Below, piece after piece: positions 3,106 through 19,408 of a DNA stretch of 20,439 nucleotides. The stretch covers positions 1 through 20,439 of the IMG/VR virus record IMGVR_UViG_3300035698_003997; one strand, 5' to 3'. Within the stretch, counting starts at the first letter, position 1, and every line of letters starts with the position of its first letter. The notes beneath the pieces were generated by a model, which was given only the letters and a program-made list of their open reading frames with translations, was not told where the DNA came from and searched no databases. Source of the stretch: a virus. A program made the position numbers and the translations under genes.

Positions 3106-3135
3106 AAAAGAGGTCTCAATTGAGACCTCTTTTTT
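3106..3135 (+). terminator. Rho-independent terminator after the small basic protein gene
   Basis: A perfect 30-base palindrome (arms 3106-3120 and 3121-3135) with GAGGTCTC at its core, flanked by A's on the left and a T run to 3135. In RNA it gives a stable GC-containing stem with a tight turn at TCAATTGA and a U tail. Its symmetry and flanking A/T runs mean it could also act on minus-strand transcripts. It separates the basic-protein unit from the DNA polymerase gene. Confidence 0.9.
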
Positions 3136-3161
3136 CTATATTACGATACGGAGGTTATTTA

Positions 3162-5846
3162 ATGTATAGTTATGTTCACTACAGGTGTGGCCGAAACGCA
3201 ACAGAGCCATGGAAAGGAGAAATCCTTTTAAGAACCTGGGATAATGATGGCAAGTCCATTATTAAAACGTTCCCTCATAAGTCAAAACTCTATCACGAAA
3301 ACGAACAAGGTGAATACACCAGTGTTTATGGTAACAGTTTAACGAAGAAGACATTTGACAACATCTTTGAAAAGAAACGTTGGAAAGATGATTATAATGT
3401 AAGAAAGACATATGGTGAATTTAATCCAGATATGGAATTCATCCAAGACACATACTATGGATACAACAAGGACCCAGAGTTCTTCGACACTAAACTTCGT
3501 ATCCAAGTAATCGATATTGAAACAGCTGTTCCACGCGGCGCAGGTCAAGAATCATTCGACTGTTCACTTACCCCTTATCCAATTACCCTAATTGGAATCT
3601 ACGACTCTCAAACTGATTGTAAATATATCTTTATGAATATCAGTGATGCTTGGTATGATAAGCCTAAAGAAGAATGGCCATGGAAAGATACTAAGAAAGT
3701 TAAGTACTTCATCTTTAAGGACAACTATGCTAAGATGTTGATTTCCTTCTTGCATTGGTGGAAGAACAATACACCAGACGTAGTTACAGGTTGGAACTCT
3801 AGATTGTTTGACTGGCCTTACGTTATTAATGAGTGTTATAAGCAGCTTGGTTTAGCGCCTGGTGGCGGTGACTTAGTAGCTGAATATCTTTCTCCAATGG
3901 GAGAACTAATTGAACGACAAGAAAGAACTGGGTTTGATGGTGAACATAAAGTTTATTATTTGATTGTTGGTGTAAACATCCTTGACTACAAAGAGCTTTA
4001 TAAAGAAGGCTATGGTGAAAAGTCATTACCAAACCATAAGCTTGAAACGGTATGTCAACACGAACTCAATATTGGTAAGACACCAAACCCTGAAACTTCA
4101 TTCCATGCCTTCTATACTAAGCATTGGGAATTGTTCGTAAGCTATCTCGAAACAGATATCCAACGTCCATGGGAACTTGAACAGAAGCTTAAGTTCATTG
4201 AGCTTGCTAAGACGGTAGCATATACCTCTTTGATTCCACTTGAAAAGGTACTTGTGACGACTCCAGTCGTAATTGGTGCATTGAATCAGCAAGTCAAAGA
4301 AGATGATCGCATCATGATTACTAATACTGGAATCGAAGATGTAGCTGAAGATTATGAAGGTGGTCACGTTATGGATCCTATTGCTGGTATTTATAATGAA
4401 GGTATTTTCTCTATTGACTTGAACTCTCTTTATCCAAACATTATCATTACGCTTAACCTTTCAAATGAAACTTACGTTGGTAAGATCACTGAAGAAGATG
4501 AAAGCTATGTAACGATCAATATCAATGGAACGATCAAACGACTTACTATTGTTCAGTTCAATCAGAAACTTAAGCCACGTGTAAATAGAGCAGCAAATGG
4601 AGCTCTATTCCTTAAGGCAACCGAAAAGGAAGGTGTAATTCCTAAGTTCCTTAAGAAAACGTATAATGCTCGTCGTGATACTAAAAACGAGATGCTTGCA
4701 ACATATCGTAAGATTGATGCACTTAAACAAGCCCTTAAGACATGTGAAGATAAGGACAAGAAAAAGCAGATCAGAGATGGAATTGAACTACTTGATTCTC
4801 AAGCTAAACAGCTTAATGCTAATCAGATGGCCTTCAAACTTCTTATGAACTCGCTATATGGCCTGTTCGCTTCACCTTATTCTCCTATCTACAATCTCGT
4901 TCTTGCTGAAGCTATTACGTTATGTGGGCAAGATATTATTAAGACTAGTGGTGAATATGTCAACGAGCTTGCAGTAGAAATGCTTGGTATTGATTATCCA
5001 GTGACTCTTTACTCTGATACTGACTCCGCTTATGTGAATGCAGAACCATTCCTTAAAGCTCAGTTTGGTGATAAACTCAAGTGGACTCGTGAATCTGTTC
5101 AAAAGTATTGTGATTATGTTGATGCTGCTATTGTTCCTAAGATTAATGAAAACTGTGCTCGTATCGTTAAAGATAACTATTGGTCTGATGATTCTCATAT
5201 TGAGTTCAAACGTGAAACTTTATGTTCACATGGTGCCTTTGTAGCTAAGAAGCGTAATTGCCTATTAGTTAGAGATGATGAAGGAACTCCATGTAAGAAA
5301 TGGAAGTACACTGGCTTAGATGTTAAGAAGAATGAGTATACCCAAGATACTAAGGATGCTATTTCAAATGTAATTGAAACGATGATCTTAGAGAACTGGG
5401 ATAACGCTCAATTCAGTTCAAATATCTATAAGCTATGGGAAGACTTCCAGACTCGCTCCCCTGAGTCCGTTGGTATCTATAAAGGATATAATACGTACAA
5501 AGAATACTATGGTGGCTTCAGGAGCGAACCTAGAACGTTAGCACACGTACGTGGACATCATTATCATAATGATATTATCAAACAGCGAAACATTGATATT
5601 GCTGAGTTACGCTTCCAAGAGAAGATGCAGTTCGTATACCTTAAGCCTACGCTTAATGAATATCAGATCGATGTAATTGCTTTTGACTTCGCTTGGCCTG
5701 AAGAATTCACTCCGATATTTGAAATTGACTATAAAGAAATGTTTAATCGTACTATAATTAAGCCTCTAGATAGATTCATTCAAATGAAGCACTATGTTGT
5801 GCCTAACGTTGAACAAAAAGAAGTGTTTGACATTAACGAGTTATAA
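3162..5846 (+). CDS. 43: Family B DNA polymerase (T4 gp43-like) with 3'-5' exonuclease
   Basis: Replicative DNA polymerase, 894 residues from ATG 3162 (T4 gp43 is 898). The ATG follows CGGAGG; an upstream TTG at 3120 lies inside the terminator and is rejected. Exonuclease motifs: D-I-E (D118, E120), N-S-R-L-F-D (D217) and L-E-T-D (D332). Polymerase motifs: A, D-L-N-S-L-Y-P (D419, SLYP 422-425); B, K-L-L-M-N-S-L-Y-G (from K559); C, Y-S-D-T-D-S (D619 and D621). All catalytic acids are present. The last residues, V-F-D-I-N-E-L, are a plausible clamp-binding tail. Motif A has N-S-L-Y-P-N where many relatives have x-S-L-Y-P-S. It would work with the clamp, gp32-like protein and helicase encoded later in the window. 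It heads the long plus-strand chain that includes the proposed base-modification genes. Confidence 0.97.
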   Translation: MYSYVHYRCGRNATEPWKGEILLRTWDNDGKSIIKTFPHKSKLYHENEQGEYTSVYGNSLTKKTFDNIFEKKRWKDDYNVRKTYGEFNPDMEFIQDTYYGYNKDPEFFDTKLRIQVIDIETAVPRGAGQESFDCSLTPYPITLIGIYDSQTDCKYIFMNISDAWYDKPKEEWPWKDTKKVKYFIFKDNYAKMLISFLHWWKNNTPDVVTGWNSRLFDWPYVINECYKQLGLAPGGGDLVAEYLSPMGELIERQERTGFDGEHKVYYLIVGVNILDYKELYKEGYGEKSLPNHKLETVCQHELNIGKTPNPETSFHAFYTKHWELFVSYLETDIQRPWELEQKLKFIELAKTVAYTSLIPLEKVLVTTPVVIGALNQQVKEDDRIMITNTGIEDVAEDYEGGHVMDPIAGIYNEGIFSIDLNSLYPNIIITLNLSNETYVGKITEEDESYVTININGTIKRLTIVQFNQKLKPRVNRAANGALFLKATEKEGVIPKFLKKTYNARRDTKNEMLATYRKIDALKQALKTCEDKDKKKQIRDGIELLDSQAKQLNANQMAFKLLMNSLYGLFASPYSPIYNLVLAEAITLCGQDIIKTSGEYVNELAVEMLGIDYPVTLYSDTDSAYVNAEPFLKAQFGDKLKWTRESVQKYCDYVDAAIVPKINENCARIVKDNYWSDDSHIEFKRETLCSHGAFVAKKRNCLLVRDDEGTPCKKWKYTGLDVKKNEYTQDTKDAISNVIETMILENWDNAQFSSNIYKLWEDFQTRSPESVGIYKGYNTYKEYYGGFRSEPRTLAHVRGHHYHNDIIKQRNIDIAELRFQEKMQFVYLKPTLNEYQIDVIAFDFAWPEEFTPIFEIDYKEMFNRTIIKPLDRFIQMKHYVVPNVEQKEVFDINEL

Positions 5847-5854: not shown

Positions 5855-6067
5855 ATGATAGGATATGTAATTAGTTATTTTGTTATAGGGATTATCTTTG
5901 GGTTGGCAACAACCTTTAATGTCTGGTCCCAATATATTAATGCAGACCCTATGTCTAAAGCAATGGCCCACATAGATGGATACGGATGGTGGCAAACTTA
6001 TGCCTTTATCTTTATTACAAGGTGTCTAGGGTGGCCTGTTTATTTAGTAATGAGGTTCATGGCCTAA
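5855..6067 (+). CDS. Small membrane protein, function unknown
   Basis: A 70-residue protein with a good ribosome binding site (AAGGAG) 8 bases after the polymerase gene. It has an N-terminal membrane segment (about residues 3-22, I-G-Y-V-I-S-Y-F-V-I-G-I-I-F-G) and a second one near the C-terminus (about 47-67, Y-A-F-I-F-I-T-R-C-L-G-W-P-V-Y-L-V). A short polar loop with a D-P-M-S-K and H-I-D-G-Y-G-W-W motif lies between them. I recognise no family; the pattern fits small phage inner-membrane proteins. Its stop shares one base with the start of the phosphatase gene (TAATG), so translation is coupled. Real gene likely; role unknown. Confidence 0.6.
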   Translation: MIGYVISYFVIGIIFGLATTFNVWSQYINADPMSKAMAHIDGYGWWQTYAFIFITRCLGWPVYLVMRFMA

Positions 6068-6639
6068 TGATTATATTCTGTAGACATTATAAGACACAAG
6101 CTAACGTTGATCATATTGTTCAGACTTATACTGACAATGGTATCCTTGATATGCCTAAGGAAGTTAAAGAAGCTTGGGACGAAAACATACCTCTCCAATT
6201 TGCTATGGATGAGGTATGGGTATCTCCACTAAAACGAACTCAACAGACTGCCGAAGCATTAGTAGGTAAATGGGATTACCTATCTCATTTTGTTACTGAG
6301 ACACCTTTGCGAGCCATTGAAGGTCAACCTGTAATCCTTGAGGATGATGATTTTCCAGACGATGATGAAACGATGCAAGACATTGAATATTCACGAGCTA
6401 ACGTGATTAAGTTCTGGGATGCTCTTGATAAAGATAAAGATATAATTGTCTTCTCACATGGTATCGTAATGAGGTTACTGTATTACCATGTAATGAATAT
6501 TCCGTTCCCTGATAACTTCCCTGACTCATTTAGGACGTACATAGCACCTATCTCTATGCTCGTCTTTGATAATCTTGATACTAAACCAACCTGTGAATTT
6601 ATTCATACAACTAAGGATCTAATCCAATATGAAAAGTAA
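6067..6639 (+). CDS. Histidine phosphatase superfamily protein
   Basis: A 190-residue protein from ATG 6067, which overlaps the previous stop by one base. A longer frame opening at 5986 runs through the neighbour and is rejected. Family marks: F-C-R-H-Y-K-T-Q-A-N (R6, phosphohistidine H7, T10, N13), V-S-P-L-K-R-T-Q-Q-T-A (R57), and F-S-H-G (H131). The canonical RHGET is RHYKT here, which still keeps the catalytic R-H pair. A D/E-rich insertion lies at about 92-106. Members hydrolyse phosphate esters of sugars, nucleotides or proteins through a phosphohistidine. Linked to sugar-activation genes, it may remove a sugar or nucleotide phosphate, for example arabinose-1,5-bisphosphate or a modified-base intermediate. 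The adjacent HAD protein is an equally good candidate, so I cannot choose the substrate. Confidence 0.85.
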   Translation: MIIFCRHYKTQANVDHIVQTYTDNGILDMPKEVKEAWDENIPLQFAMDEVWVSPLKRTQQTAEALVGKWDYLSHFVTETPLRAIEGQPVILEDDDFPDDDETMQDIEYSRANVIKFWDALDKDKDIIVFSHGIVMRLLYYHVMNIPFPDNFPDSFRTYIAPISMLVFDNLDTKPTCEFIHTTKDLIQYEK

Positions 6640-6982
6640 AATCGTCTACATAGCAGTTCCATTTTCTGACCCAAGTATGAAAGTGAAGCTTGAACGTTAT
6701 TCAATGGTCAATAAAGTATGTGCTAAGCTAATGAATGAAGGTGTAATTTTGTTTTCACCAGTAACTATGGGATGGTCTATTGCTGAAGCTACCCCAGATG
6801 GATTACCTACTGATTGGAAATATTGGCAGCGTACGTGTACCGAAATGGTACGTGCTTGCTATAAGATTATAGTCGTAATGATGCCAGGTTGGGAATCTTC
6901 TGTTGGGGTCCAGGCCGAAATATCTTTAGCTAAAGAATATGACCTCGAAGTTGAGTACATTGATCCTAAGGACTTCATTTAA
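6629..6982 (+). CDS. DUF1937 / nucleoside 2-deoxyribosyltransferase-like protein
   Basis: A 117-residue protein starting inside the end of the phosphatase gene. Features of the deoxyribosyltransferase-like fold: N-terminal strand Y-I-A-V-P-F-S-D (relatives read Y-x-A-G-P-Y/F-S), an F-S-P-V-T-M-G-W segment near residues 42-49, W-K-Y-W-Q-R-T-C, and the C-terminal M-M-P-G-W-E-S-S-V-G-V-Q-A-E-I (about 84-98), whose Glu is the expected nucleophile or acid. The MPGWExSxGxxxE pattern is typical of DUF1937/DUF4406-type phage proteins. Related enzymes cleave or transfer the base of deoxynucleosides or (d)NMPs; MilB-type members hydrolyse (hydroxymethyl-)CMP. Next to a dNMP kinase and glycosylation genes, a role in nucleotide-pool editing is plausible, such as removing unmodified dCMP. 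The family is likely; the activity is inferred. Confidence 0.7.
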   Translation: MKSKIVYIAVPFSDPSMKVKLERYSMVNKVCAKLMNEGVILFSPVTMGWSIAEATPDGLPTDWKYWQRTCTEMVRACYKIIVVMMPGWESSVGVQAEISLAKEYDLEVEYIDPKDFI

Positions 6983-7536
6983 TGTTCTACGATATCAACT
7001 ACGAAGTTGAAGCAACTGACGAACTAATTGAGGAAATTGAAAAAATGTTTTTTGATCACGGAATAGATATCAACTCACTAGACCCTAAGAAAACAATTGT
7101 GGTTGATGTAGATGATACTATCTTAACAACTGAAAATCGTGACTACCCTAACTCTGTACCTAATAAGCCTTTAATCGAAAAAATTAATAAGCTATTTAAT
7201 ACTGATTGGACCGTCATTTATTTTAGTGCACGAGGCCACGTAAGTTTTAACAATGATGCGTACCATGTTGAAGGTGAAGTTTACCCTATTATGGAACAGT
7301 GGATGGTTGATAACAATGTCCAGTATGACCATTTGATCCTTGGTAAGCCTATAGCTGCATATTACATCGATGATAAAGCAATTCGACCTGATGAGTTTCT
7401 AGAATTAAATCTTGATGAAGATAAAGAATACCCTTTCTGTCATATGACTAATGTAAATGATGACTGGGTTTATGTATGCCAATATTGTGGTGCTGAAAGC
7501 TGTCCAGACTGTGGCGGAAGATGTGGATGTGAATAA
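6982..7536 (+). CDS. HAD-superfamily phosphatase with Cys-rich C-terminal tail
   Basis: A 184-residue protein, start overlapping the previous stop by one base. HAD motifs: I, V-D-V-D-D-T (D42 and D44); II, Y-F-S-A-R-G (S82); III, G-K-P (K122); IV, Y-I-D-D-K-A (D130, D131). The layout resembles small capsular-polysaccharide-type phosphatases. A helical N-terminal extension of about 36 residues precedes the core. After residue 150 a compact tail carries six cysteines (166, 169, 174, 177, 181, 183: C-Q-Y-C, C-P-D-C, C-G-C), probably a zinc ribbon, which is unusual for this family and might contact DNA or a partner. By analogy with GmhB in heptose activation, it could convert arabinose-1,5-bisphosphate to arabinose-1-phosphate. 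That substrate is inference from neighbours. Confidence 0.8.
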   Translation: MFYDINYEVEATDELIEEIEKMFFDHGIDINSLDPKKTIVVDVDDTILTTENRDYPNSVPNKPLIEKINKLFNTDWTVIYFSARGHVSFNNDAYHVEGEVYPIMEQWMVDNNVQYDHLILGKPIAAYYIDDKAIRPDEFLELNLDEDKEYPFCHMTNVNDDWVYVCQYCGAESCPDCGGRCGCE

Positions 7537-7537
7537 G

Positions 7538-8089
7538 ATGAAGAATCGTAAAATTATAATTATTGAAGCACCTGATCGTTTAGGCAAAGATACTTTCCTT
7601 AAATACATGAAGTCACGTGATCCTGGTGAAGAAGCATATCACGTCTATTTTAAAGATGATGTGAAGCCGCCTGATTATCGTAAAGTCGATGAGTTTAATA
7701 CTTGGCTCAAGAATTACCTCAAGACTGAAATGGTTAATATGGCAGGTATTAATAACAACATCGTTATTGCTCGTCTGTTTACGTCTGACTACGTTTATTC
7801 AAATCTCTTTGATAGACAGTCATATGCTAACAACGTGTATGAATTCCTACGTTTAGAGGGCTTTGAGTTCTATCAGATCACCTTTGTTTATAAGTCATAT
7901 GAAGACTATAAGGAACGTTGTATTAAAAGTGGATCAGATGTTGAATATGATTGTATGGAATTTGCTGAATTGCAAGCACTCTATTACAATTCTATCTATA
8001 ATAAAGTCATCCCAACAACTATCGAACGTACCGATACGATAGACCACGAATTCACATATGAACAAATCGAGAACTTGATTTATGGTTAA
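7538..8089 (+). CDS. Thymidylate-kinase-like deoxynucleoside monophosphate kinase
   Basis: A 183-residue P-loop protein from ATG 7538, one base after the previous stop; an upstream in-frame ATG at 7457 is inside the HAD gene and rejected. The N-terminus is strand I-I-I-I followed by E-A-P-D-R-L-G-K-D-T (10-19), matching the E-G-x-D-x-x-G-K-S/T P-loop of dTMP kinases (Leu replaces the usual Gly/Ser before G-K). A segment V-I-A-R-L-F-T-S-D near residues 70-78 resembles the D-R-x/L-x-S-x substrate loop. Length is near the family's 200. It would phosphorylate a dNMP to dNDP; in T4, gp1 does this for hydroxymethyl-dCMP. In this chain it may act on a modified or ordinary dNMP for phage DNA synthesis. 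Specificity cannot be read from the sequence. Confidence 0.75.
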   Translation: MKNRKIIIIEAPDRLGKDTFLKYMKSRDPGEEAYHVYFKDDVKPPDYRKVDEFNTWLKNYLKTEMVNMAGINNNIVIARLFTSDYVYSNLFDRQSYANNVYEFLRLEGFEFYQITFVYKSYEDYKERCIKSGSDVEYDCMEFAELQALYYNSIYNKVIPTTIERTDTIDHEFTYEQIENLIYG

Positions 8090-9107
8090 TTTTGATTTAA
8101 ACACGAAGACGTTTCCAGCTTCTCTCCTTGATGGCAAACGTATTCTTTATATCCCAGTCGTAAGTATGCGATCACACGATACTGGGATATATGATTTAGC
8201 CTGCGATGGGAATGTTAATCGAATGATTGCATTCTTCAACCTCTATAATTACGAGCAGTTGACTATCACATTGCCTGAAGCAGTCGAGAACAGATCGTTC
8301 ATCGAAGACCGCCTAAGGTGTTCCTTTAGACATATTGATGCATATGGAAAAAACGCCAATGAAACCAGAAGCTCTAGGTTAGCTTGGTATAATTTCTTTT
8401 ATGATGACATCCCTTGGTTCAATTATGATGTGATTATATTCGAACCTAATATAATTGGCTCATTCTATATTCCTCCACGTATTGATGCTTATTTCTGGAG
8501 TCCAGTATCTCGTACAACTAAAGGATCACCTTCATTCATTACAGAGTTCGATATTCAAGATGTTAAAACTCATCTAAAGTATCCAATGATTGTTGCTTCT
8601 AATAATCAAGAAGCCTATTGGAATATGGTTCCTGGTTGTGAAGTATATCAACACAATTTGAATTGGATACCTGAAAAGGAAGAATTTAAAACTCCTACCC
8701 ATCTCGCTAAGAATCCTATTTTCTTACCATTCAGACTTACTGATACTGGATATCGTATCCCAGAGATAATGGATGCCTTAATTGAATTAGCTGATGAAGG
8801 TGAAGAATTCACTGTATATTACACTTCACCAAACGATGCTCCATTTGAATATGAAGTTCCTAATATAAAATGGCCTAAAGATCGTGATTATTATTATAAG
8901 ATGCTAACTGAGAAACCAATCATCATATACCTTGAAGACCCAGATGAAATCCTGCACACGAGCGTTCTAGAATTTATCGAATACGATTGTAGATTGATTT
9001 ATTTAGAGAATGAGTTGTTCAGACATAAAACCACCGAAGGTCAAATTGGTGATGTCTACGAAGATTTGAAATACCTTATAAGGAAAATGTTAAATGGAAA
9101 AAGTTAG
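8082..9107 (+). CDS. Putative GT-B-fold glycosyltransferase
   Basis: A 341-residue protein overlapping the kinase gene by 8 bases. I see no close named family, but the plan fits GT-B: an N-terminal Rossmann-like half to about residue 195, then N-P-I-F-L-P-F-R-L-T-D near 212-222 opening the second half (compare 'ilfvGRL...K'), F-T-V-Y-Y-T-S-P (about 244-251) as the next strand, I-K-W-P-K-D-R-D-Y-Y-Y-K-M-L before P-I-I-I-Y-L-E-D-P-D-E-I-L-H-T-S-V-L-E-F-I, which mirrors the 'PS..EgfG.svlEAma' donor-binding helix, and R-L-I-Y-L-E-N. No signal peptide or membrane helix, so it acts in the cytoplasm. Beside sugar-activation genes, transfer of the activated sugar to DNA bases is the best inference. 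Alternatives are transfer to a host glycan or a virion protein. Confidence 0.55.
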   Translation: MVNFDLNTKTFPASLLDGKRILYIPVVSMRSHDTGIYDLACDGNVNRMIAFFNLYNYEQLTITLPEAVENRSFIEDRLRCSFRHIDAYGKNANETRSSRLAWYNFFYDDIPWFNYDVIIFEPNIIGSFYIPPRIDAYFWSPVSRTTKGSPSFITEFDIQDVKTHLKYPMIVASNNQEAYWNMVPGCEVYQHNLNWIPEKEEFKTPTHLAKNPIFLPFRLTDTGYRIPEIMDALIELADEGEEFTVYYTSPNDAPFEYEVPNIKWPKDRDYYYKMLTEKPIIIYLEDPDEILHTSVLEFIEYDCRLIYLENELFRHKTTEGQIGDVYEDLKYLIRKMLNGKS

Positions 9108-9708
9108 TAAAATCATTAAAATGAACGAGTTGCTTTTAGAAGTACTCGCGACAAAGGATAACCAAGACACAATTGACAATATGGCTAGACGTTGGGATCG
9201 TGGCTTTGTATTCTGTGGAGTTGGTAAGAATTGGTACATCTGTGAAAAGGTTGCTAAGACCTTTATCTCAATGGGAATTCCCGCTCAGACACTTGATCCA
9301 ATCCATGCTCTTCATGGTGACATTGGTATGCTCAATGACCAGAACCTAGTCTTTATCAGTAAGTCTGGAACTACTGTCGAAATGGTAAACACAATGAAGT
9401 ATCTTATTCAGCTTCGTGAAAAGCATGTCATTGACTGTGCCTTCTTCAATATCAATCTTAATAAACATGCTGAGAGTAACGACTTATGTGATTATATTAT
9501 CACTAACGTACTTGATACAGAAGTCTATGAGATGGATGAGAAGAACATTATTCCATCATTATCTATTGATATGATCCAAATGCTTCTAGACTATATAGGA
9601 GTTGAGATATTTGAAACTCATTTACATTTACTTAAACGTTACCCATTCAATCATCCAGGTGGTTCAATAGGTGAACAGGTAGGATCAGGAGAACTATTGA
9701 ATGCGTAA
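9094..9708 (+). CDS. kpsF: SIS-domain D-arabinose 5-phosphate isomerase (KpsF/KdsD/GutQ type)
   Basis: A 204-residue single SIS domain, start overlapping the glycosyltransferase gene by 14 bases with AAGGAAA upstream. It matches KdsD/KpsF closely: F-C-G-V-G-K (K45, equivalent to KdsD K59), H-A-L-H-G-D-I-G-M-L (H74), V-F-I-S-K-S-G-T-T-V-E (S91, G92, E96) and the C-terminal N-H-P-G-G-S-I-G, whose His187 corresponds to the catalytic His193 of E. coli KdsD (H-P-G-G-A-L-G). The tandem CBS domains of the 328-residue bacterial enzymes are absent, as in short SIS-only isomerases. The reaction is ribulose-5-P to arabinose-5-P. T4-like phages with arabinosylated cytosine (RB69 type) are known to carry such a gene, which links this one to DNA arabinosylation. 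The other known use, Kdo synthesis, would need kdsA-type genes that are not here. Confidence 0.88.
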   Translation: MEKVSKIIKMNELLLEVLATKDNQDTIDNMARRWDRGFVFCGVGKNWYICEKVAKTFISMGIPAQTLDPIHALHGDIGMLNDQNLVFISKSGTTVEMVNTMKYLIQLREKHVIDCAFFNINLNKHAESNDLCDYIITNVLDTEVYEMDEKNIIPSLSIDMIQMLLDYIGVEIFETHLHLLKRYPFNHPGGSIGEQVGSGELLNA

Positions 9709-11230
9709 TGAAGAAAGCAAAACTAATCTAGTATTTGTTGCCGGTGGTTTAAATACAAGGTTCAATGAATATAACAGAATCCCAAAGTTGTTATTACCAT
9801 ATGAGGATAATGATTCTGTTCTTATCTGGAACCTTAAAATGATTGATCACTGTGATGCTAATATCATTATACATCGTCAGTACTACGAGATGGTCCAGAA
9901 TTACGTCAAGGTGAACAATCTTGAAGTATCTGTATTTCCTATTGATAATTCAGATGGATCGTACTGGGCTATCCATGAAGCTTCTCATGATGGTATGTTC
10001 CCCCAAGAAGATATTGTATTCGTTTGGTCTGATATCATATTCAAAGAACCTATTGCCTTCTCTCAAATGGATGAGGTAGTTATTGGTACTAGAGAAGGTG
10101 ATTATCGATACTTTGCTGATAGTGATCGAATTAGAAACATAAACAAAGCTCACATGGAAACTGGTAATGTTCCAGGTGTATATTACTTCCCCACGTTTGA
10201 AGGTTTCACTACAGCCGATATGAATAAAAACAACTATGACTTAGTTGACTTTATTAGAGATCATGTTCGTGAGTTCGATACATGGCCTTTACCTGAAATT
10301 ACTGAATTTAGAGACATCGATATTTATATTAAAGAAATGAACTTTGATCCTATTGGAACCTCTCCTAGGTTCTTCAATAAACTAATCTTTGATGGAAATC
10401 AGTTAACAAAGCACTGTGTTGATCCTAACTATATTAATCTTATTCAAACCGAAATGGAGTGGTATAAAACTGCTAAGCGACTTGAAATTAATGCTATTCC
10501 GGAAATTTATCATTATGGTCATGATTATATAATCATGGAATATCTTGAAGATTCTGAACCACTTGATACATATCTTCGACGTACTAAAGACTTTGATGTC
10601 TTTAATGAATTCGTTCTTCCTTCTGTTCAAGGAATTCATAGTCAATGGAAAGAATCAGTAGACTCAATGCGTATGCTCAAAGATACTAAGATTGAGTTCT
10701 ATGACAAAGTTCTTAATCGAGTTGGCTCTATTGATAAGATGATCCTTGATTTTGATTATAGTGAGTTTAATGAAGTAATCCATACAGCATACAAGATGCT
10801 TATCTCTAAGCTTGATATTCGTTATGGACATGAACCATTCTATGTGTTTACTCATGGTGACTTGAACGGCTCTAACACAATGATAAACCCTAAAACAGGT
10901 AAGGTGAAGTTCATTGATCCACGCGGGTACTATGGTGAAACTAAAATGCTTGGTCTTGCTGAATATGATATGGCCAAGCTTTACTATTTCTTGCATGGTT
11001 ATGATCACTTCAATAATGGATTCTATCTCTATGCAGATAAAGACAACTTCGATGCACCTGAATGCATTTATAAGCCATCTCGTCTTCAGGATCCTATTAT
11101 GGAAATCATGCTCGGATTTATCTATGTTAATCTATCATCATACATCAGTAATAATGTGATGAAGGCAAATATCGCATATCATCACGGTATGAATATCTTA
11201 AAGGAAGCAATTAATAATGAACAGTTTTAA
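9701..11230 (+). CDS. Bifunctional nucleotidyltransferase - APH-type sugar kinase
   Basis: A 509-residue fusion. The N-terminal domain (about 1-220) is a GT-A-type nucleotidyltransferase: V-A-G-G-L-N-T-R-F (G15, G16, R20) followed by P-K (P28, K29), and F-V-W-S-D (D111) as the metal/nucleotide Asp. The C-terminal domain (about 225-505) is an aminoglycoside-phosphotransferase/choline-kinase fold: hinge I-I-M-E-Y-L (277-282), catalytic T-H-G-D-L-N-G-S-N (H385, D387, N392) and metal-binding K-F-I-D-P-R-G (D406). Such fusions occur in capsule gene clusters, where kinase and transferase act in sequence on one sugar. Here the kinase would make arabinose-1,5-bisP from arabinose-5-P, and the transferase would make NDP-arabinose from arabinose-1-P after a phosphatase step. 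Domains are clear; substrates are inferred from the adjacent kpsF-type gene. Overlaps by 8 bases upstream and 14 downstream. Confidence 0.85.
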   Translation: MRNEESKTNLVFVAGGLNTRFNEYNRIPKLLLPYEDNDSVLIWNLKMIDHCDANIIIHRQYYEMVQNYVKVNNLEVSVFPIDNSDGSYWAIHEASHDGMFPQEDIVFVWSDIIFKEPIAFSQMDEVVIGTREGDYRYFADSDRIRNINKAHMETGNVPGVYYFPTFEGFTTADMNKNNYDLVDFIRDHVREFDTWPLPEITEFRDIDIYIKEMNFDPIGTSPRFFNKLIFDGNQLTKHCVDPNYINLIQTEMEWYKTAKRLEINAIPEIYHYGHDYIIMEYLEDSEPLDTYLRRTKDFDVFNEFVLPSVQGIHSQWKESVDSMRMLKDTKIEFYDKVLNRVGSIDKMILDFDYSEFNEVIHTAYKMLISKLDIRYGHEPFYVFTHGDLNGSNTMINPKTGKVKFIDPRGYYGETKMLGLAEYDMAKLYYFLHGYDHFNNGFYLYADKDNFDAPECIYKPSRLQDPIMEIMLGFIYVNLSSYISNNVMKANIAYHHGMNILKEAINNEQF

Positions 11231-12320
11231 AATTGGTTACAACTTCGAACCTGAGTTAATCAGAGCAATCGAATTTATGAATCGTAAATGGGGTGCTCAA
11301 TCTAAAGTAGTTGAAGTGTATAGTTCTGATCGTACTCATGCTTATGTAAGTGCTCGTCCAGATTTTCGAATTCAAGATGTAGGTACAGATGATCTTAAAT
11401 CACATGTACGTGCTCTTAAAGACATTGGCGTAACATTCAACTACACAATGAACACAATCAATCCTGGATCTAAAGCTACTCTTCAACATGAAGGACTTGC
11501 TGATGATATTAGAGCATGGGTTGATATACTTGTAAATGATATTGGAGTTGGACGTATTACTGTAGCTAACCCTATGGTACTTGAATTGATTCGTTCAGTT
11601 AGCGCTGATATCCCTATTGAAATTTCTACCATAGCTCACATCGATTCCCTCTCTCAGATTAAGTTCTATAAAGAGAAATACAATATCGATAAGATTTGTG
11701 GTAATCTAATGTTGAACCGGAACTTCACTAAACTTGAAGGTATGGCCACCTGGTGTAATGATAATGGTGTCGTCTTAGACCTGATGACTAACGAATTCTG
11801 TGGAGTGGGTTCCGGTTCATATGCTACCCATTGCATCTATCGAGATTCATGTTACATTGCGCATGCTTCAGACAAATCACAACATGATGCTGAATCTATG
11901 GATTGCTATCCTATGAAACGTTGCATGAACTCACGTGATATTGATGCTGCATGTTGGTTGAAAACTAGATTCATTAGACCTGAAGACCTTAAAGCTTATC
12001 GTGATATTGGTATCCATCACTTTAAAATTACTGGACGTACAGGGACAACAGAGTATATCAAGAGAGTTGTCGAAGCTTATATGGCTGAATCATACAAAGG
12101 TAACCTTCTCGGCCTCTGGAAGAACCTAGACACAATCTATAACGGTAAAGATGAAGATCAGACTGATAATGAAATATTTGTAGACAATTCTAAACTTGAT
12201 GGCTTCCTTGACCAATGGATCCATAATGATTGGCGTTGTGACGAGAAAAACTGTGGCGTTGCTGAAGGCCCAAATGCATGCAACTACTGTAATGACTTTT
12301 GGGAAAGGAAAATGAAATAA
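11217..12320 (+). CDS. U32 peptidase-family Fe-S protein (UbiU/UbiV/RlhA/TrhP-like)
   Basis: A 367-residue protein of the U32 family. The family's C-terminal core is present: W-L-K-T-R-F-I-R-P-E-D-L-K-A-Y-R-D-I-G-I followed by H-F-K-I-T-G-R (268-274) and V-V-E-A-Y (284-288), plus a TIM-barrel-like N-terminal half. Conserved-type cysteines for a [4Fe-4S] cluster lie at 195, 206, 212, 230, 236 and 246 (N-E-F-C-G, H-C-I-Y-R-D-S-C, D-C-Y-P-M-K-R-C). A C-terminal set (C341, C346, C355, C358) could bind a second metal. Characterised relatives hydroxylate ubiquinone precursors without O2 (UbiU-UbiV), C2501 of 23S rRNA (RlhA), or wobble uridine in tRNA (TrhP), using prephenate in the RNA cases. In a chain of sugar-activation genes it may hydroxylate a pyrimidine to create the acceptor for glycosylation; RNA modification is the main alternative. 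Confidence 0.82.
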   Translation: MNSFKIGYNFEPELIRAIEFMNRKWGAQSKVVEVYSSDRTHAYVSARPDFRIQDVGTDDLKSHVRALKDIGVTFNYTMNTINPGSKATLQHEGLADDIRAWVDILVNDIGVGRITVANPMVLELIRSVSADIPIEISTIAHIDSLSQIKFYKEKYNIDKICGNLMLNRNFTKLEGMATWCNDNGVVLDLMTNEFCGVGSGSYATHCIYRDSCYIAHASDKSQHDAESMDCYPMKRCMNSRDIDAACWLKTRFIRPEDLKAYRDIGIHHFKITGRTGTTEYIKRVVEAYMAESYKGNLLGLWKNLDTIYNGKDEDQTDNEIFVDNSKLDGFLDQWIHNDWRCDEKNCGVAEGPNACNYCNDFWERKMK

Positions 12321-12871
12321 TGAATTCAATGAACACAATCGAGCACTATACTGCTCCAGGAAACACCTTTATCGCTAAACCTATCTCTATGAAGAAGGAA
12401 TATGCAGGTATCATTTTACCAGATGAAGCCGTAGAGAAAAGCTTCTTTGAGATTATCGATCTTGGTAATCAGTTTGACCATAAAGAGTTCAAAATCGGTG
12501 ACGTTGTTCTCGTTAATGGTAAAGGTGGCGACCGTATCGATATTCAAAATGGTGAATATTGGATCTATCCGGTAACGATGGTTGCTGCAAAGATCATTGA
12601 TGATGAAGTAATCCCGATAAATAGATTCATCACCCTAGAAGTTAACGAGGAAGATGAAGTCAGTGACTATGGTGGTATTCTTCTCTATAAAGAGAAGACT
12701 GATACTGACATTGTTTTCTTGAAGGTCATCCGAGCTGGTAACGGTAACATTGACTTATTCCCAGGTATGAAAGTTGTACTTGAGAAGCAGCATTGTATTC
12801 CTGTTAAAACTAAAGAACATTCCATTCTCTTGACCTCTGAAGTAGTTGTTCTGGGGATAGTTGAGGATTAG
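12320..12871 (+). CDS. Tandem GroES-like co-chaperonin
   Basis: A 183-residue protein; ATG 12320 overlaps the previous stop by one base, and the in-frame TTG at 12299 is rejected. It reads as two Cpn10 domains in a row. Domain 1 (about 10-95) has F-I-A-K-P, a mobile-loop-like K-E-Y-A-G-I-I-L-P-D-E-A (about 25-36), E-I-I-D-L-G, and K-I-G-D-V-V-L-V-N with G-G-D-R (about 59-73). Domain 2 (about 100-183) repeats it more loosely: R-F-I-T-L, D-Y-G-G-I-L-L-Y-K-E, V-I-R-A-G, F-P-G-M-K-V-V-L and S-E-V-V-V-L-G-I. GroES is about 97 residues and T4 gp31 111. Phage co-chaperonins replace GroES on host GroEL to fold the major capsid protein; a duplicated subunit changes the symmetry with the seven-fold GroEL. 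Domain 1 is confident, domain 2 less so. Confidence 0.75.
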   Translation: MNSMNTIEHYTAPGNTFIAKPISMKKEYAGIILPDEAVEKSFFEIIDLGNQFDHKEFKIGDVVLVNGKGGDRIDIQNGEYWIYPVTMVAAKIIDDEVIPINRFITLEVNEEDEVSDYGGILLYKEKTDTDIVFLKVIRAGNGNIDLFPGMKVVLEKQHCIPVKTKEHSILLTSEVVVLGIVED

Positions 12872-12873
12872 AA

Positions 12874-13095
12874 ATGTTTTGGCCAGACTGTGATATAAAG
12901 ATTCGAATCACGGTAACTCTATCTAAAGTCTTCGCAATAGCCTTAATGGTTGCTGCGATTTCTTTGGATTTACATTACGAGTTACAAGCACAATTGTTTA
13001 TGTGGACAACTCCATTCGGAGTAGGTCTAATTGGTGGTAAGCAAGCTCTTGATACGATTAAAGCTGTAAAGGGTGCATTAACCAATAAAGATTAA
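12874..13095 (+). CDS. Small membrane protein, function unknown
   Basis: A 73-residue protein starting 2 bases after the GroES-like gene. An N-terminal polar stretch is followed by a membrane segment (about 17-30, V-F-A-I-A-L-M-V-A-A-I-S-L), a short loop, and a weaker hydrophobic segment (about 38-55, Q-L-F-M-W-T-T-P-F-G-V-G-L-I-G-G). The tail is amphipathic and basic (K-Q-A-L-D-T-I-K-A-V-K-G-A). Two short hydrophobic segments with a charged tail also describe small holins, but the gene sits among replication and modification genes, so I do not assign lysis. Its stop overlaps the convergent minus-strand gene by 4 bases. It closes the long plus-strand chain. Confidence 0.55.
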   Translation: MFWPDCDIKIRITVTLSKVFAIALMVAAISLDLHYELQAQLFMWTTPFGVGLIGGKQALDTIKAVKGALTNKD

Positions 13096-14051
13096 TTCCA
13101 TTCAGAACTAATAAAATTTTCTGGATCGATAGACTTAGTCCACTTCTCCCAAGTTTCTCCTGTTGCAGCTTTGATTACTCGAGCTGCAAAGCTTTTCACG
13201 GTAGGTGATGCATTATGAATAAGAGCGAATAACGATTTAGCATGCTTCTTATTTTCAAGAGCAAACCCAATCCAAGTATGTCTTCCCATACTATCACCAT
13301 AAGACTTAACTTTGTTCAATACAGAGTCAGTGTTATGTTGGAGGTCGAAGATGTGGTCGATGTATACGATTTGATCATCAAGACTTGAAGCCTTATCTAA
13401 TTTCTGATAACCTTTAGCTATGTTAGCCCATGCTCGTCCACCATAATCTCCCCAACGTCTTTTACCGGGTGTATTACGTGAAGTAGTTTTCCACATACTG
13501 TTACTAAAGACTTTCTCAGCAAGCTTAGCAAACTCTTTATCTGACCAAGTATCTTTAATTGCCGAATATGATACATCACGAGCATCTTTATCAAAGAAGA
13601 AATTCTCAGATAGTGCATCATCATTAAAATAAGATTCGGCATACGGATCAAATTGATCTATGACCATTTTAGCAAGCCAATCCTTTTGCATTATACCTAA
13701 TTTATCGACATATTTTTTAAGTTTAGATCTGCCAATTAACTTTTCTAATTCTGAGTATGTACTAAATGCTAGGGCATGTCTGAATTCAGACGCCATTGAA
13801 TAATGTACTGCATCAAGAAGATCTTTCTTTAAATACTTAACAACCTTTTTAGTAGCTTCAGTTGCAAGTTGTTTCATTGCAGGACCTTCAGCAACAGGTG
13901 CTTTAGAAGCATGACCATCTAAGAGCCAAACTGGGAGAGATACTAGGATATAGAAGTCATACATCAACTGCTCCTTATTTGAAGGAATCTTATAGTTGAA
14001 TGATATCTTCTCATTTATCATTGAGGCAAATTGTGTTGTTTTTAAGTTCAT
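13092..14051 (-). CDS. Conserved-looking phage protein of unknown function, lone minus-strand gene
   Basis: A 319-residue soluble protein, the only minus-strand gene after base 2000. The N-terminus is hydrophobic and helical (F-Y-I-L-V-S-L-P-V-W-L-L-D near 33-44) but probably not a membrane anchor. The second half contains Y-G-G-R-A-W-A-N-I-A-K-G-Y (about 208-220) and I-V-Y-I-D-H-I-F-D-L-Q-H-N-T-D-S-V-L-N-K-V (about 233-253), a conserved-looking pattern that I associate, from memory only, with uncharacterised proteins of large phages. No catalytic motif is evident; the H-x2-F-D-L-x-H-N-T element could be a metal or ligand site. Reversed orientation between tightly packed plus-strand genes suggests a separately controlled insertion. 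It overlaps its convergent neighbour by 4 bases and is divergent from uvsX with only 41 bases between starts. Confidence 0.65.
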   Translation of the reverse strand: MNLKTTQFASMINEKISFNYKIPSNKEQLMYDFYILVSLPVWLLDGHASKAPVAEGPAMKQLATEATKKVVKYLKKDLLDAVHYSMASEFRHALAFSTYSELEKLIGRSKLKKYVDKLGIMQKDWLAKMVIDQFDPYAESYFNDDALSENFFFDKDARDVSYSAIKDTWSDKEFAKLAEKVFSNSMWKTTSRNTPGKRRWGDYGGRAWANIAKGYQKLDKASSLDDQIVYIDHIFDLQHNTDSVLNKVKSYGDSMGRHTWIGFALENKKHAKSLFALIHNASPTVKSFAARVIKAATGETWEKWTKSIDPENFISSEWN

Positions 14052-14092: not shown

Positions 14093-15379
14093 ATGGCTAA
14101 GAAACCAAAATCACCTGCTGAATTGCTAAAAGAGCTACGAAAGAAAACAGGTGGTGTATCATTTAAAGAATCTAAGTGGGCAGTGCCAGATCACTATATT
14201 TCCACTGGGGACTTTGCAGTAAACCAAATGCTTACAGGATCTATCTTCAATGGCATTCCTGCAGGCAAAGTATCAGTATTCGCTGGTGAATCTGGATCAC
14301 TCAAAACAGTTCAGGTTGTACGTATTGCAGCTAACGCCCTTAATGACATGGATTACGATCTTGTTTATTACTTCGACTCAGAAGGTGGAGCTCCAGCTGA
14401 AATGTTTGACAACTTCGGATGTGACCTCGAAAAGATTGAGCATATTCTAGTTGAATCAACTGAAGATGCTACTGTAAAGATGATTCAGACTCTCCAGACT
14501 ATTTACGAGATTCAGAAATCAGATCCAAACTTCCGTGCGTTCGTTATTCTTGACTCGCTTGGTAACTTGGAAAACAATAAGACATTCAACGATATTGAAA
14601 AAGATCGATTGGCTGCCGACCAGGGAGCTGGCGCTAAAGTTAAGAATAAGCTTTGTCGTGCTATGACTATTCCTGCATTGAAAGCTCATGTGCCTGTATG
14701 TATCATTAACTGGGTCTATGAAGGTCCTTCAATGTTTACTGCTAAGATCCTCGATCAGCCGGGTGGTAAAGGTTCTGGATTCGTTGGGACTCTTAATGTT
14801 CAGTGCCGTAAGACGTTGATCAAATCTGAAGATACCGAAGATGGTAACTATTACGATGAATCAACCATTACGATGTTTACTGTAAAGAATCGTTTGATTA
14901 CCCCTTACCTTTCTGCACAGGTGCACGTATCATTTACTGAAGGGCTTAACTTGTACCCTTACTTGTCTCTGTTCGACTCAGCTATTGAGTTTGGATTCAT
15001 TGATAAGATTACATCCCAGACATTTAGTGTGCCATCCTGGGTCGACGTGAAACGTACTGAGACTGCTGCTTATATTGCTAAGTATCAAGAAGAAAATGAT
15101 GGTAAGAATCCTACGTTAAAACAACGTAAAGAAGACCTCGGTTATCTTGAACCTGATGAAGTTACCTTTAAGAAGAAAGCTCTTATTGGCCCAGACGCTA
15201 AAGAAGTATGGGATACCTTCATCTATGCTTATGACAAAGCTGCTGGTGATAAGTTGAAATATTCTAAAGTGACAGTTGATTCGATTCAGGAACTTGGTTT
15301 CTCTGAAGAAGAAGCTGAAGCTCTTATGGATGTAACCCTCGGCGAAGAAGTAGAGGTAGACGAAAATGCTGAAGTTTAA
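14093..15379 (+). CDS. uvsX: UvsX/RecA-like recombinase
   Basis: A 428-residue recombinase with a strong ribosome binding site (AAAGGAG). Walker A is A-G-E-S-G-S-L-K-T (G65-T72): as in T4 UvsX, the usual Gly before the Lys is replaced by a bulky residue (Leu here), so this is a variant P-loop. Y-Y-F-D-S-E (E97) supplies the RecA-type catalytic Glu, and Walker B is F-V-I-L-D-S-L-G-N (D154). L2-like Gly-rich residues G-G-K-G-S-G-F-V-G lie near 224-232. The C-terminus is long and acidic (E-E-A-E-A-L-M... E-V-E-V-D-E-N-A-E-V), which in this family regulates DNA binding. T4 UvsX has about 390 residues, so this one is longer. It coats single-stranded DNA for strand exchange, driving recombination-dependent replication with the gp32-like and helicase proteins encoded downstream. 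Confidence 0.95.
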   Translation: MAKKPKSPAELLKELRKKTGGVSFKESKWAVPDHYISTGDFAVNQMLTGSIFNGIPAGKVSVFAGESGSLKTVQVVRIAANALNDMDYDLVYYFDSEGGAPAEMFDNFGCDLEKIEHILVESTEDATVKMIQTLQTIYEIQKSDPNFRAFVILDSLGNLENNKTFNDIEKDRLAADQGAGAKVKNKLCRAMTIPALKAHVPVCIINWVYEGPSMFTAKILDQPGGKGSGFVGTLNVQCRKTLIKSEDTEDGNYYDESTITMFTVKNRLITPYLSAQVHVSFTEGLNLYPYLSLFDSAIEFGFIDKITSQTFSVPSWVDVKRTETAAYIAKYQEENDGKNPTLKQRKEDLGYLEPDEVTFKKKALIGPDAKEVWDTFIYAYDKAAGDKLKYSKVTVDSIQELGFSEEEAEALMDVTLGEEVEVDENAEV

Positions 15380-15644: not shown

Positions 15645-17033
15645 ATGACCGAAAAAGACACAGAAACAGCTCAAAAGCATTTAGTTTTACCTGAAGAAAT
15701 CACTTTACGACTTATAGCTTCAAAGTTCATGACCGATGCTAGTTATCGGGATATGATTGTTGATACTTATGACCCTAAAATCTATTCAGAAAATATAAAT
15801 ATCGCCACTATTCTCGAATGTCAGATGATCTATCATGACAAATATGAGAATGCCCCTGACTTTGCAACCCTTAAAGCTTTACTTACACGATATAGCGAAA
15901 AGAAAACAAATGTAGATCTTACTCAGCTAATGATTGAGTTCGACCAGATGCAGAACAATAAAGATGAGTTCGACCATAAGGTTGTAAGTGATTCAGTTGT
16001 TGACCTCATTTCAAGTCGTATGACGTACTATGCGATTCTTGATAATTTTGAAATCATCAAGACCAAGAAAGACGTATCAAAACTATTAGGCGCCCTTGAG
16101 AAAGTATCAAACATCTCATTGGACTATGACCTTGGTTTCCTTTACTTCGAACACATCCTTGATCATATTGAAGAACTTAAAAAGCCTGAGCTCAAAATAA
16201 GCCTAGGATACTCAGAGATGGACTACGTTCTAAATGGTGGACTATATTCTGATGGTAAGTGCCTTTGTCTCTTCATCGCTCCCTCTCACGTTGGTAAGTC
16301 ATTAATGCTCTCCAATATTGCCGTCAACATGCTTACAGAAAACAAATTTGTAGCTATTATCTCATTAGAGATGTCAGAATTTGTTTATGGTACTCGATGT
16401 GATGCTCATATTTCCGAATTGAACATTAATGATCTTCCTAATAATACTGAAGCTCTTGAAGAACGAGTTACTGATTATGCTAAGATGTTCCCAGGTGCAA
16501 AGCTTGCTATTAAAGAATTTGCTCCTAACTCTGTCAACTCAAACAACTTACGCACATATCTTGAACGATTAGAGAAGCATTATGATAGAAAACTTGATGC
16601 TGTATTCATTGATTATGTTGACTTGTTGAACCCTATTCATGGCCTTAATAGAGCTACTTGGGAAAAGCTTGTTGATGTAGCTAAAGAAATGCGTGGTTTA
16701 AGTTATTACTTCAACTGCCCTATCATTTCTGCTGTCCAAACGACTCGTGAAGGATTTGATACCTCTGAAATTGACATGCAATCTACTGGTGGATCTATTG
16801 GTATTCCTCAGACTGCAGATGTAATGTTCAGTTTATATCAGCTTGAAGGTGATCGTGAAATGAGTATCCTTCGTTCCAAAGTTGTTAAGAATCGACTCGG
16901 TGGAAAGATTGGTGAAGCTATTGAATTTAAAGTTGACTATAATAACTTAAGAATCTACGATATGAAAGCGCAGAATTCTAGTATATCAGAAGATGCCGCA
17001 TCCATCGTTGATGACATTGCAAACAATCTATAA
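15645..17033 (+). CDS. 41: DnaB-like replicative helicase (T4 gp41-like)
   Basis: A 462-residue hexameric-type helicase (T4 gp41 is 475). The N-terminal domain to about residue 165 is helical. The RecA-like core has Walker A A-P-S-H-V-G-K-S (212-219), the DnaB motif I-S-L-E-M-S (239-244), Walker B V-F-I-D-Y-V-D-L-L (320-328), and A-V-Q-T-T-R-E near 365-371 where DnaB has Q-L-N-R. A C-terminal S-x-V-V-K-N-R-L-G-G region (about 413-422) matches the K-x-R-x-G motif. It unwinds the fork 5'-3' on the lagging strand and should be loaded by the gp59-like protein encoded four genes on. The ribosome binding site before the ATG is weak, so the 35-base gap after the hairpin may matter for its expression. 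No separate primase is visible in the window. Confidence 0.93.
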   Translation: MTEKDTETAQKHLVLPEEITLRLIASKFMTDASYRDMIVDTYDPKIYSENINIATILECQMIYHDKYENAPDFATLKALLTRYSEKKTNVDLTQLMIEFDQMQNNKDEFDHKVVSDSVVDLISSRMTYYAILDNFEIIKTKKDVSKLLGALEKVSNISLDYDLGFLYFEHILDHIEELKKPELKISLGYSEMDYVLNGGLYSDGKCLCLFIAPSHVGKSLMLSNIAVNMLTENKFVAIISLEMSEFVYGTRCDAHISELNINDLPNNTEALEERVTDYAKMFPGAKLAIKEFAPNSVNSNNLRTYLERLEKHYDRKLDAVFIDYVDLLNPIHGLNRATWEKLVDVAKEMRGLSYYFNCPIISAVQTTREGFDTSEIDMQSTGGSIGIPQTADVMFSLYQLEGDREMSILRSKVVKNRLGGKIGEAIEFKVDYNNLRIYDMKAQNSSISEDAASIVDDIANNL

Positions 17034-18436: not shown

Positions 18437-19408
18437 ATGGACATGGAAAAAATGTATGCGGCTCTTGAAGCTCAAGAAACCGAAAAACGTAAAGTAGATG
18501 AAGAAGCAGCTAAGGATTTCCAGAATCCTAATATGCTTACAATGAAAGCAGGCAACACGTATCGTGTTCGCTTGATGTACTGGTGCAATGATGTTCCAGG
18601 CGACCGTAAAGTTCCAATTATCGAAAAAACTGTTCACGCAGTTAAAACAGATACAGGTTATGTTGAAGTAACTTGCCCAGTGTCTGAATATTTGATGGGA
18701 CGTTCCGGATATCGTGCATGCCCTATTTGTGGTGAACTTTCCTCCCTCTGGGATCAGAAAGATAAAGGTTCAGCTTCTGCAGCTGAAGCATATAAGAAAT
18801 TTAAGCGTAAGTTTAAAGGATATGCAGTCGTTTATGTAGTAAACGATTCCGATAAAGGTGATGAAAACAACGGTGAATTCAAAATCGTTTATATCAACGC
18901 TATCATCAACAAATACCTTCGTAAGAAAATCAAAGGTGTTGATCATAAAGGCAATAAAATTGATGGTGCTGTAGCTCTCGGCTTCAAAGCTTTCAATCAG
19001 AAAGGCCGTGATCTTATTATCACTGTTACCCAAGGTGCAGAATTCAAAGAATACGAATGTGAATTCGATGAAGGTAATACCCTTGATATTACAGATGAAC
19101 AGATTGAAGCTGCTTATGATACACTTGACTTCGAATCGTTCTACACCAAGCACGATCCTGCTGCCCTCCAGTCTTTCTATGACGATATCGTTCTAGAAAA
19201 AGAAGCTGCTCCTGCCTCGGCAAATGCAGCAATAGATATGGCCGCAGAAGCTAAAGCTGAAAAGCCTGCTGAAAAAGCTGAAAAGAAGACTGCCAAAAAA
19301 GCTGAAAAGAAAGTAGAGAAACCTGCTGAAAAAGAAGCTGCACCTGAAGAAAAAACTACAGGTAAGTCAGTTGATGTTGATGCACTTTTAGCCGGACTTC
19401 CTGGTTAA
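18437..19408 (+). CDS. 32: Single-stranded DNA-binding protein (T4 gp32-like)
   Basis: A 323-residue protein (T4 gp32 has 301). The zinc site is intact: H67, C80, C95, C98 (H-x12-C-x14-C-x2-C, with C-P-I-C), paralleling H64, C77, C87, C90 in T4 with a slightly longer loop. An N-terminal K/R-rich section (E-K-R-K-V) would serve cooperative binding, the OB-fold core is aromatic and basic (F-K-R-K-F-K-G-Y-A-V-V-Y), and the C-terminus is acidic. Between core and end lies an extended A/E/K/P low-complexity linker (about 255-308). The final V-D-A-L-L-A-G-L-P-G may be the partner-binding tip. ATG 18437 is preceded by AAAGGA; ATG 18443 is an alternative. It coats single-stranded DNA for replication and recombination and binds the loader and helicase. 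Confidence 0.94.
   Translation: MDMEKMYAALEAQETEKRKVDEEAAKDFQNPNMLTMKAGNTYRVRLMYWCNDVPGDRKVPIIEKTVHAVKTDTGYVEVTCPVSEYLMGRSGYRACPICGELSSLWDQKDKGSASAAEAYKKFKRKFKGYAVVYVVNDSDKGDENNGEFKIVYINAIINKYLRKKIKGVDHKGNKIDGAVALGFKAFNQKGRDLIITVTQGAEFKEYECEFDEGNTLDITDEQIEAAYDTLDFESFYTKHDPAALQSFYDDIVLEKEAAPASANAAIDMAAEAKAEKPAEKAEKKTAKKAEKKVEKPAEKEAAPEEKTTGKSVDVDALLAGLPG

Follow-up and report, generated by a model that had tools for sequence, protein, structure and literature searches.

Candidate hypermodification genes were analyzed in the window, the whole 20,439-base fragment of a T4-like phage, IMG/VR record IMGVR_UViG_3300035698_003997. The six core genes at 6982-12320 (Table 1) probably form a diverged RB69-type cassette that arabinosylates hydroxylated cytosine in the phage's own DNA, judging from homology and gene order. 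The last of them encodes a Peptidase_U32-family (U32) protein, which among the local genes is the best candidate for hydroxylating the base, and the chance that it does carry out this step is put at about even. Compared with known pentosyl-5-hydroxycytosine systems, the new and testable element is this predicted step, in which U32 would use prephenate. Direct observation covers the genes present, their synteny, their conserved motifs and, in relatives, the co-occurrence of U32 with prephenate genes, all set out below.

Gene content of the cassette and the proposed pathway

A preliminary description of this DNA had named eight overlapping genes at 6067-12320. All were present, closely packed between the DNA polymerase and UvsX, and profile searches of each protein confirmed the families of all eight. 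Its claim of one translationally coupled, overlapping chain was borne out as to close packing, not as to overlap throughout, the deoxynucleoside monophosphate (dNMP) kinase starting (7538) one base past the HAD stop; the likely start sites were corrected to 6067 for the histidine phosphatase and 7538 for the dNMP kinase. Close packing continues beyond both ends, into a 70-amino-acid open reading frame (ORF) (5855-6067) and the GroES-like gene (12320-12871), and because tight packing is common in T4-like phages, coupling alone tells little. The gene set is kept in other phages, which argues that the cassette is not a chance grouping.

Homologues of the HAD phosphatase, dNMP kinase, GT-B-fold protein (phrog_3891), KpsF, nucleotidyltransferase-kinase fusion and U32 protein all lie in the polymerase-to-UvsX/gp41 interval of Mosigvirus PhAPEC2 (L003), and most of the six occur, as variants of the set, in the same interval in Serratia 92A1 and LC53, Marfa, Acj61 and Shewanella phage Thanatos. 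In PhAPEC2, genes for KpsF, fusion, HAD, U32, a thymidylate synthase (TS) homologue, RB69ORF047c and a kinase fill this interval, and the HAD, GT-B, KpsF, fusion and U32 proteins of the window share 25-45% identity with their counterparts there. The polymerase is the left neighbour in Mosigvirus, LC53 and Thanatos as well (loci L003, L004, L005, L095, L096), the window polymerase sharing only ~29% identity with the nearest polymerases found in phages. The window differs from RB69/Mosigvirus in gene order and in that its proteins are only ~25-47% identical, U32 being the closest; the fragment is also without a TS-type 5-hydroxy-deoxycytidine monophosphate (5-hodCMP) synthase and carries an additional histidine phosphatase and DUF1937 protein. 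Thanatos shares the fusion (TH1_060), HAD (TH1_061), GT-B (TH1_063), kinase (TH1_064) and U32 (TH1_065), but differs in having a TS homologue and, next to U32, a chorismate mutase, and no KpsF match was found in its whole genome, which fits its reported non-arabinose deoxypentose.

LC53 is reportedly one of the phages with arabinosyl-hydroxycytosine described by Mahler et al. 2025. The T4 gp42/gp1/glucosyltransferase hydroxymethylcytosine pathway occupies the same polymerase-to-UvsX neighbourhood, and the window would share its logic, in which deoxycytidine monophosphate (dCMP) is modified, phosphorylated, polymerised and then glycosylated. T4 uses a hydroxymethyl group and glucose, whereas the window would use a direct 5-hydroxyl, a pentose and phage-encoded sugar activation. 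Among the systems with reported chemistry, Mosigvirus DNA bears 5-arabinosyl-deoxycytidine (5-ara-dC) and ara-ara-dC on 5-hydroxy-dC (PMC13390438), and Thanatos DNA bears a deoxypentose on 5-oxy-cytosine (PMC12838424). According to the Durham study the complete Mosigvirus pathway is not yet characterised, and the Thanatos authors had no valid hypothesis for the origin of the hydroxyl (PMC12838424).

The closest relatives were seen on metagenomic contigs. G015, G020, G022 and G026 carry GT-B, KpsF and fusion genes in the window's order (KpsF 41-49% and fusion 32-38% identical), with a KdsC-like HAD gene before U32 in G015 (weak score), G020 and G022; GT-B, kinase, fusion and U32 lie together in G006, with KpsF elsewhere. 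By eye, a TnpB-like gene sits between HAD and U32 in the G015 cassette (L021:8689-9951).

For the sugar-activation genes, the window HAD shared 28-31% identity with its counterparts in the Mosigvirus, Serratia, Marfa and Acj61 cassettes, and D42 and D44 were invariant in the alignment. Its C-terminal tail (7477-7536) is cysteine-rich (CQYCGAESCPDCGGRCGCE), a feature not found in relatives of the same alignment. The KpsF-family alignment profile matched the arabinose-5-phosphate isomerase 2xhz in the PDB at 5e-22, and the HGDxG, SxSG and HPGG motifs (catalytic in SIS domains) were invariant; ribulose-5-phosphate to D-arabinose-5-phosphate is the predicted reaction. The fusion is a homologue of RB69 ORF053_052c and Thanatos TH1_060 (26% identity over 537 columns to the PhAPEC2 protein), its N-terminus matched RmlA/GlmU-type enzymes in a profile search of the PDB, and its GxxxR/PK and HGDxxxxN/IDPRG motifs were invariant in the alignment.

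Homologues of the dNMP kinase occur in many related cassettes (42% identity to the G006 protein in L012, further matches in L026, L035 and L097, and a weak match to the PhAPEC2 kinase), and it is predicted to phosphorylate 5-hydroxy-dCMP. In G006, the GT-B gene and the dNMP kinase are separated by an ORF (L107:8009-8560) that by eye looks HD-domain-like. Profile searches of the PDB with the U32 and GT-B proteins gave no match, hence AlphaFold and Foldseek were used. The GT-B model (predicted local distance difference test, pLDDT, 87) matched many glycosyltransferases, including 9ir0 (phage HY126 glycosyltransferase) and 1y8z (T4 alpha-glucosyltransferase); 9ir0 itself belongs to another glycosyltransferase family, phrog_8302. 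The latter family (the ORF003c-type second glycosyltransferase, the kind solved as 9iqz/9ir0) was not seen among the cassette genes scanned, and phrog_3891 was present in 31 of the 50 records compared. The GT-B protein is predicted to be a pentosyltransferase or a nucleotide-pentose enzyme.

From these families we infer the reactions, and likewise the base and the sugar, of the window phage. KpsF would yield D-arabinose-5-phosphate, the kinase half of the fusion would convert it to arabinose-1,5-bisphosphate, the HAD phosphatase would leave arabinose-1-phosphate, and the nucleotidyltransferase half would form nucleoside diphosphate (NDP)-arabinose. In the base branch, the putative iron-sulfur (Fe-S) protein U32 would hydroxylate the pyrimidine at C5, most likely as dCMP, with prephenate as a required metabolite; the dNMP kinase would pass the hydroxylated product towards DNA synthesis, and the GT-B protein would transfer the sugar to the 5-hydroxyl. 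The arabinosylation pathway put forward in the preliminary description keeps its isomerase, kinase, HAD, nucleotidyltransferase and GT-B steps, all both homologous to and syntenic with the RB69-type cassette; a system of this kind is already known in RB69-like phages. Its self-containment was not upheld, as the fragment yielded no 5-hydroxy-dCMP synthase (TS homologue), 3-deoxy-D-arabino-heptulosonate 7-phosphate (DAHP) synthase or chorismate mutase.

The U32 protein and phage-encoded prephenate genes

The U32 Fe-S protein had been listed earlier without a role; it is present, and is now the hydroxylation candidate. The best Foldseek match of its AlphaFold model (pLDDT 87) was the U32 protein 5d88. 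C195, C212 and C236 align with cysteines of Escherichia coli U32 proteins and, together with C206, were invariant in 22 phage U32 sequences, an alignment drawn from IMG/VR loci only; the conserved cysteines also include C161 and C358. It is predicted from these features to be an Fe-S protein and a prephenate-dependent pyrimidine C5-hydroxylase. Characterised relatives include RlhA, which makes 5-hydroxycytidine (ho5C) in 23S rRNA, and TrhP, both U32 proteins requiring prephenate, and a chorismate-mutase-only PheA restores TrhP-dependent 5-hydroxyuridine (ho5U) (PMC6599085). The window protein shares the U32 domain and aligned cysteines with RlhA, TrhP and UbiU/UbiV, and its relatives co-occur with prephenate-making genes. 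It differs in its low identity (~14-21%), in an insertion that changes the spacing of the first cysteines, in an Asp (Asp188) close to where the conserved Glu would stand, and in its predicted substrate, a DNA precursor rather than RNA or a quinone. TH1_065 of Thanatos, although its annotation says only hypothetical, belongs to the U32 family and is 45% identical to the window protein. A U32 relative with 41% identity to the phage family ends a similar gene row in Phocaeicola faecalis (L099:3224-7137) and in a Tannerella metagenome-assembled genome (L098:5186-9080); profiles of the L099 row identified a GP88-family protein and a guanylate kinase-methyltransferase fusion, plus one protein that no Pfam family matched, and the L098 genes look alike.

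The comparison covered 50 records, each selected for a hit to U32, KpsF or the fusion (28 U32-positive and 22 U32-negative, many of them related). Chorismate mutase and/or DAHP synthase was found in 18/28 U32-positive vs. 0/22 U32-negative records; each enzyme passed its Pfam cut-off in 14 records, all U32-positive. Among records of at least 100 kb, a prephenate gene was present in 14/15 U32-positive vs. 0/17 U32-negative records (Fisher P = 3e-8, descriptive only and uncorrected for kinship), the sole U32-positive exception being G017, which is phiE142 (121 kb). Over the same 50 records, both genes track U32 and not the TS homologue. In the phage collection, 209 records matched the PhAPEC2 DAHP synthase and 218 matched U32, the genera that lead the two sets being similar; 51 matched the chorismate mutase of Serratia 92A1.

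In Thanatos, the U32 gene TH1_065 is directly followed by TH1_066, whose product scores above the Pfam cut-off for chorismate mutase; U32, chorismate mutase and TS are consecutive in LC53; and DAHP synthase immediately follows U32 in L002, a place held by chorismate mutase in many phages. U32, a DAHP synthase-chorismate mutase fusion and GT-B overlap head to tail in L025, and U32 overlaps GT-B in L013. RB69ORF049c, at the chorismate-mutase position in Mosigvirus, had no Pfam match; RB69 encodes a DAHP synthase, and no chorismate mutase was recognised in it. Two types of DAHP synthase were found, AroF-like (51% identity to E. coli AroF in PhAPEC2, 36% in G006) and Bacillus subtilis-like (seen in L002 and, as a fusion with chorismate mutase close to U32, in G019, G020 and G022), which points to more than one acquisition. 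The AroF-like gene of PhAPEC2 (L094:2343-3335), annotated as hypothetical, adjoins a dCMP deaminase gene ~100 kb from the cassette. Since phages with U32 very often carry prephenate genes, U32 is predicted to hydroxylate the base using prephenate. The literature searched gave no published link between U32 and phages, or between prephenate and U32 in phages; part of the present proposal may already appear in Lee et al. 2025 (bioRxiv 2025.06.16.659550) and in Mahler et al. 2025.

Proposed origin of the hydroxyl group and alternative explanations

A TS homologue is part of the cassette in PhAPEC2, 92A1, Marfa, Acj61, LC53 and Thanatos, and by TS homologue and U32 the phages fall into three groups. 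Acinetobacter and JS98-type phages have a TS homologue without U32 (group a), enterobacterial phages and Thanatos have both (group b), and U32 occurs without a non-canonical TS in G006 and, as far as the contigs reach, in G019, G020 and G022, where no TS was found (group c). G006 (230 kb) carries U32, DAHP synthase, KpsF, fusion, GT-B and dNMP kinase, and its sole TS is the canonical thymidylate synthase. The window looks like a member of group c, an assignment that is not certain because it is a fragment. When the active sites of TS homologues from phages with and without U32 were compared by eye, no difference stood out as diagnostic. An aerobe/anaerobe rule, resting on the absence of U32 from phages of Acinetobacter, an aerobe, was discarded, since U32 is missing from JS98-type phages of E. 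coli as well.

Several observations weigh against a U32-based hydroxylation or against the cassette as described. At position 188 the window U32 protein has Asp instead of a Glu that nearly all phage U32 proteins keep, at the place of the essential Glu162 of TrhP, give or take one residue (by spacing to the cysteine). Ten U32-positive records, nine of them <100 kb, carry neither chorismate mutase nor DAHP synthase, and the association statistic overstates independence because the records are related. Stand-alone phage chorismate mutases keep the E. coli-aligned R11, R28, K39 and Q88, not R51. DAHP synthase, chorismate mutase and TS homologue were all missing from the 20-kb window, a fragment, and may lie elsewhere in the genome. 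Group a phages carry the TS homologue, fusion and GT-B with no U32, and 5-hydroxylation in Mosigvirus has been assigned to the TS homologue, named 5-hodCMP synthase (PMC13390438). For the transfer step, the GT-B relative TH1_063 has been reported as a UDP-xylose pyrophosphorylase, and TH1_060 and TH1_063 reportedly moved no xylose to plasmid DNA, dCMP, dCTP or cytosine; none of these acceptors has a 5-hydroxyl. TH1_063 (L095:5460-6362) carries that reported activity although its phrog_3891 fold is GT-B and glycosyltransferase-like, and the activity deserves rechecking.

Arabinosylation could proceed as proposed with the hydroxyl supplied by a TS-type 5-hydroxy-dCMP synthase encoded elsewhere in the genome, leaving U32 as a helper, a low-oxygen back-up or an enzyme with another substrate. 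The Mosigvirus assignment, the TS homologues in six named cassettes and their occurrence without U32 in group a all favor this; the window itself, the group c records and the tracking of prephenate genes with U32 rather than TS speak against it, and on balance it is considered unlikely. That U32 instead hydroxylates host or phage RNA, its place beside sugar genes being incidental, would agree with the rRNA and tRNA substrates of the characterised nucleic-acid U32 proteins (PMC6599085), but the gene overlaps in L013 and L025, and the presence of U32 in Thanatos and Mosigvirus, whose DNA bears 5-oxy-cytosine, make it improbable.

The remaining alternatives concern the fate of the sugar and of prephenate. 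KpsF, EcbF/BcbF-type and GlmU/RmlA-type enzymes also serve capsule and lipopolysaccharide synthesis, so the activated sugar might be destined for a cell-surface or virion glycan rather than DNA; given a cassette that lies between polymerase and UvsX, contains a dNMP kinase and has homologues in phages with reported pentosylated cytosine, this is very improbable. Phage prephenate might also feed carboxy-S-adenosylmethionine (carboxy-SAM), by a CmoA/CmoX-type carboxymethylcytosine route, in place of a U32 hydroxylase; some phages, S-B43 among them, do have CmoA, which uses prephenate (PMC12783734). The scan of cassette genes revealed no recognisable carboxy-SAM synthase, and chorismate mutase or DAHP synthase lies beside U32 in L002, L025, LC53 and Thanatos, which leaves this route extremely unlikely. 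For prephenate-dependent hydroxylation by U32, a broader proposal is offered tentatively, at somewhat short of an even chance: a T4-like/gut phage lineage, the window phage included, may make 5-hydroxycytosine without a TS-type enzyme or O2, by a U32 protein fed with prephenate, whose supply would be raised by DAHP synthase and chorismate mutase encoded on the phages, the window phage then adding arabinose.

Flanking genes and biological meaning

The preliminary description had begun the island at 6067; 6982-12320 stood as its core, and 6067-6982 did not, as neither of the first two genes has a counterpart in the cassettes compared. For the histidine phosphatase, tblastn at 1e-3 gave no match in the related cassette loci, and DUF1937 had a single weak match, outside the cassette, in PhAPEC2 (L003), and none in the remaining loci compared. 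Both were set aside as pathway members on this lack of conservation and are probably peripheral. In the GroES-like protein (183 amino acids), the phrog_3188 profile matched two stretches, which suggests that its Cpn10 domain was duplicated in tandem. A 319-amino-acid ORF on the minus strand (13092-14051), which lies between cassette and UvsX, had no convincing family match.

Table 1. Positions of the cassette genes and their neighbours in the window, with supporting matches
Feature	Position	Strand	Matches and remarks
Family B DNA polymerase (T4 gp43-like)	3120..5846	+	Pfam DNA_pol_B 1.6e-32; left border of cassette
Histidine phosphatase	6067..6639	+	His_Phos_1 PF00300 1e-13
DUF1937 / nucleoside 2-deoxyribosyltransferase-like protein	6629..6982	+	PF09152 2e-15; phrog_355 1e-16
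HAD phosphatase, EcbF/BcbF type	6982..7536	+	phrog_1238 4e-21; TIGR01689 2e-22, below curated cut-off
dNMP (thymidylate-type) kinase	7538..8089	+	phrog_761 4e-8
GT-B-fold protein	8082..9107	+	phrog_3891 8e-18; homologue of RB69ORF047c and Thanatos TH1_063
KpsF/KdsD-type arabinose-5-phosphate isomerase, SIS domain only	9094..9708	+	phrog_5670 3e-32; TIGR00393 1e-15
Sugar-1-phosphate nucleotidyltransferase (N-terminal) and APH-like kinase (C-terminal) fusion	9701..11230	+	phrog_4098 9e-67
Peptidase_U32-family protein	11217..12320	+	PF01136 1.7e-12, above cut-off; phrog_5757 4e-117
GroES/Cpn10-like co-chaperonin	12320..12871	+	PF00166 4e-7; end of overlapping chain, outside modification pathway
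UvsX/RecA-like recombinase	14093..15379	+	PF00154 3e-8; right border, as in RB69-type phages
DnaB-like helicase	15645-17033		PF03796 1e-18; right border together with UvsX
gp32-like protein	18437-19408		

Sugar-bearing 5-hydroxycytosine shields phage DNA against host defences. The comparison suggests KpsF as a mark of arabinose use, phages without it using another pentose. For formation of the 5-hydroxyl, the U32/prephenate prediction offers a concrete, testable enzyme and metabolite, and it would explain the otherwise puzzling DAHP synthase and chorismate mutase genes of phages. If true, DNA precursors would join RNA and quinones as targets of U32 hydroxylation.

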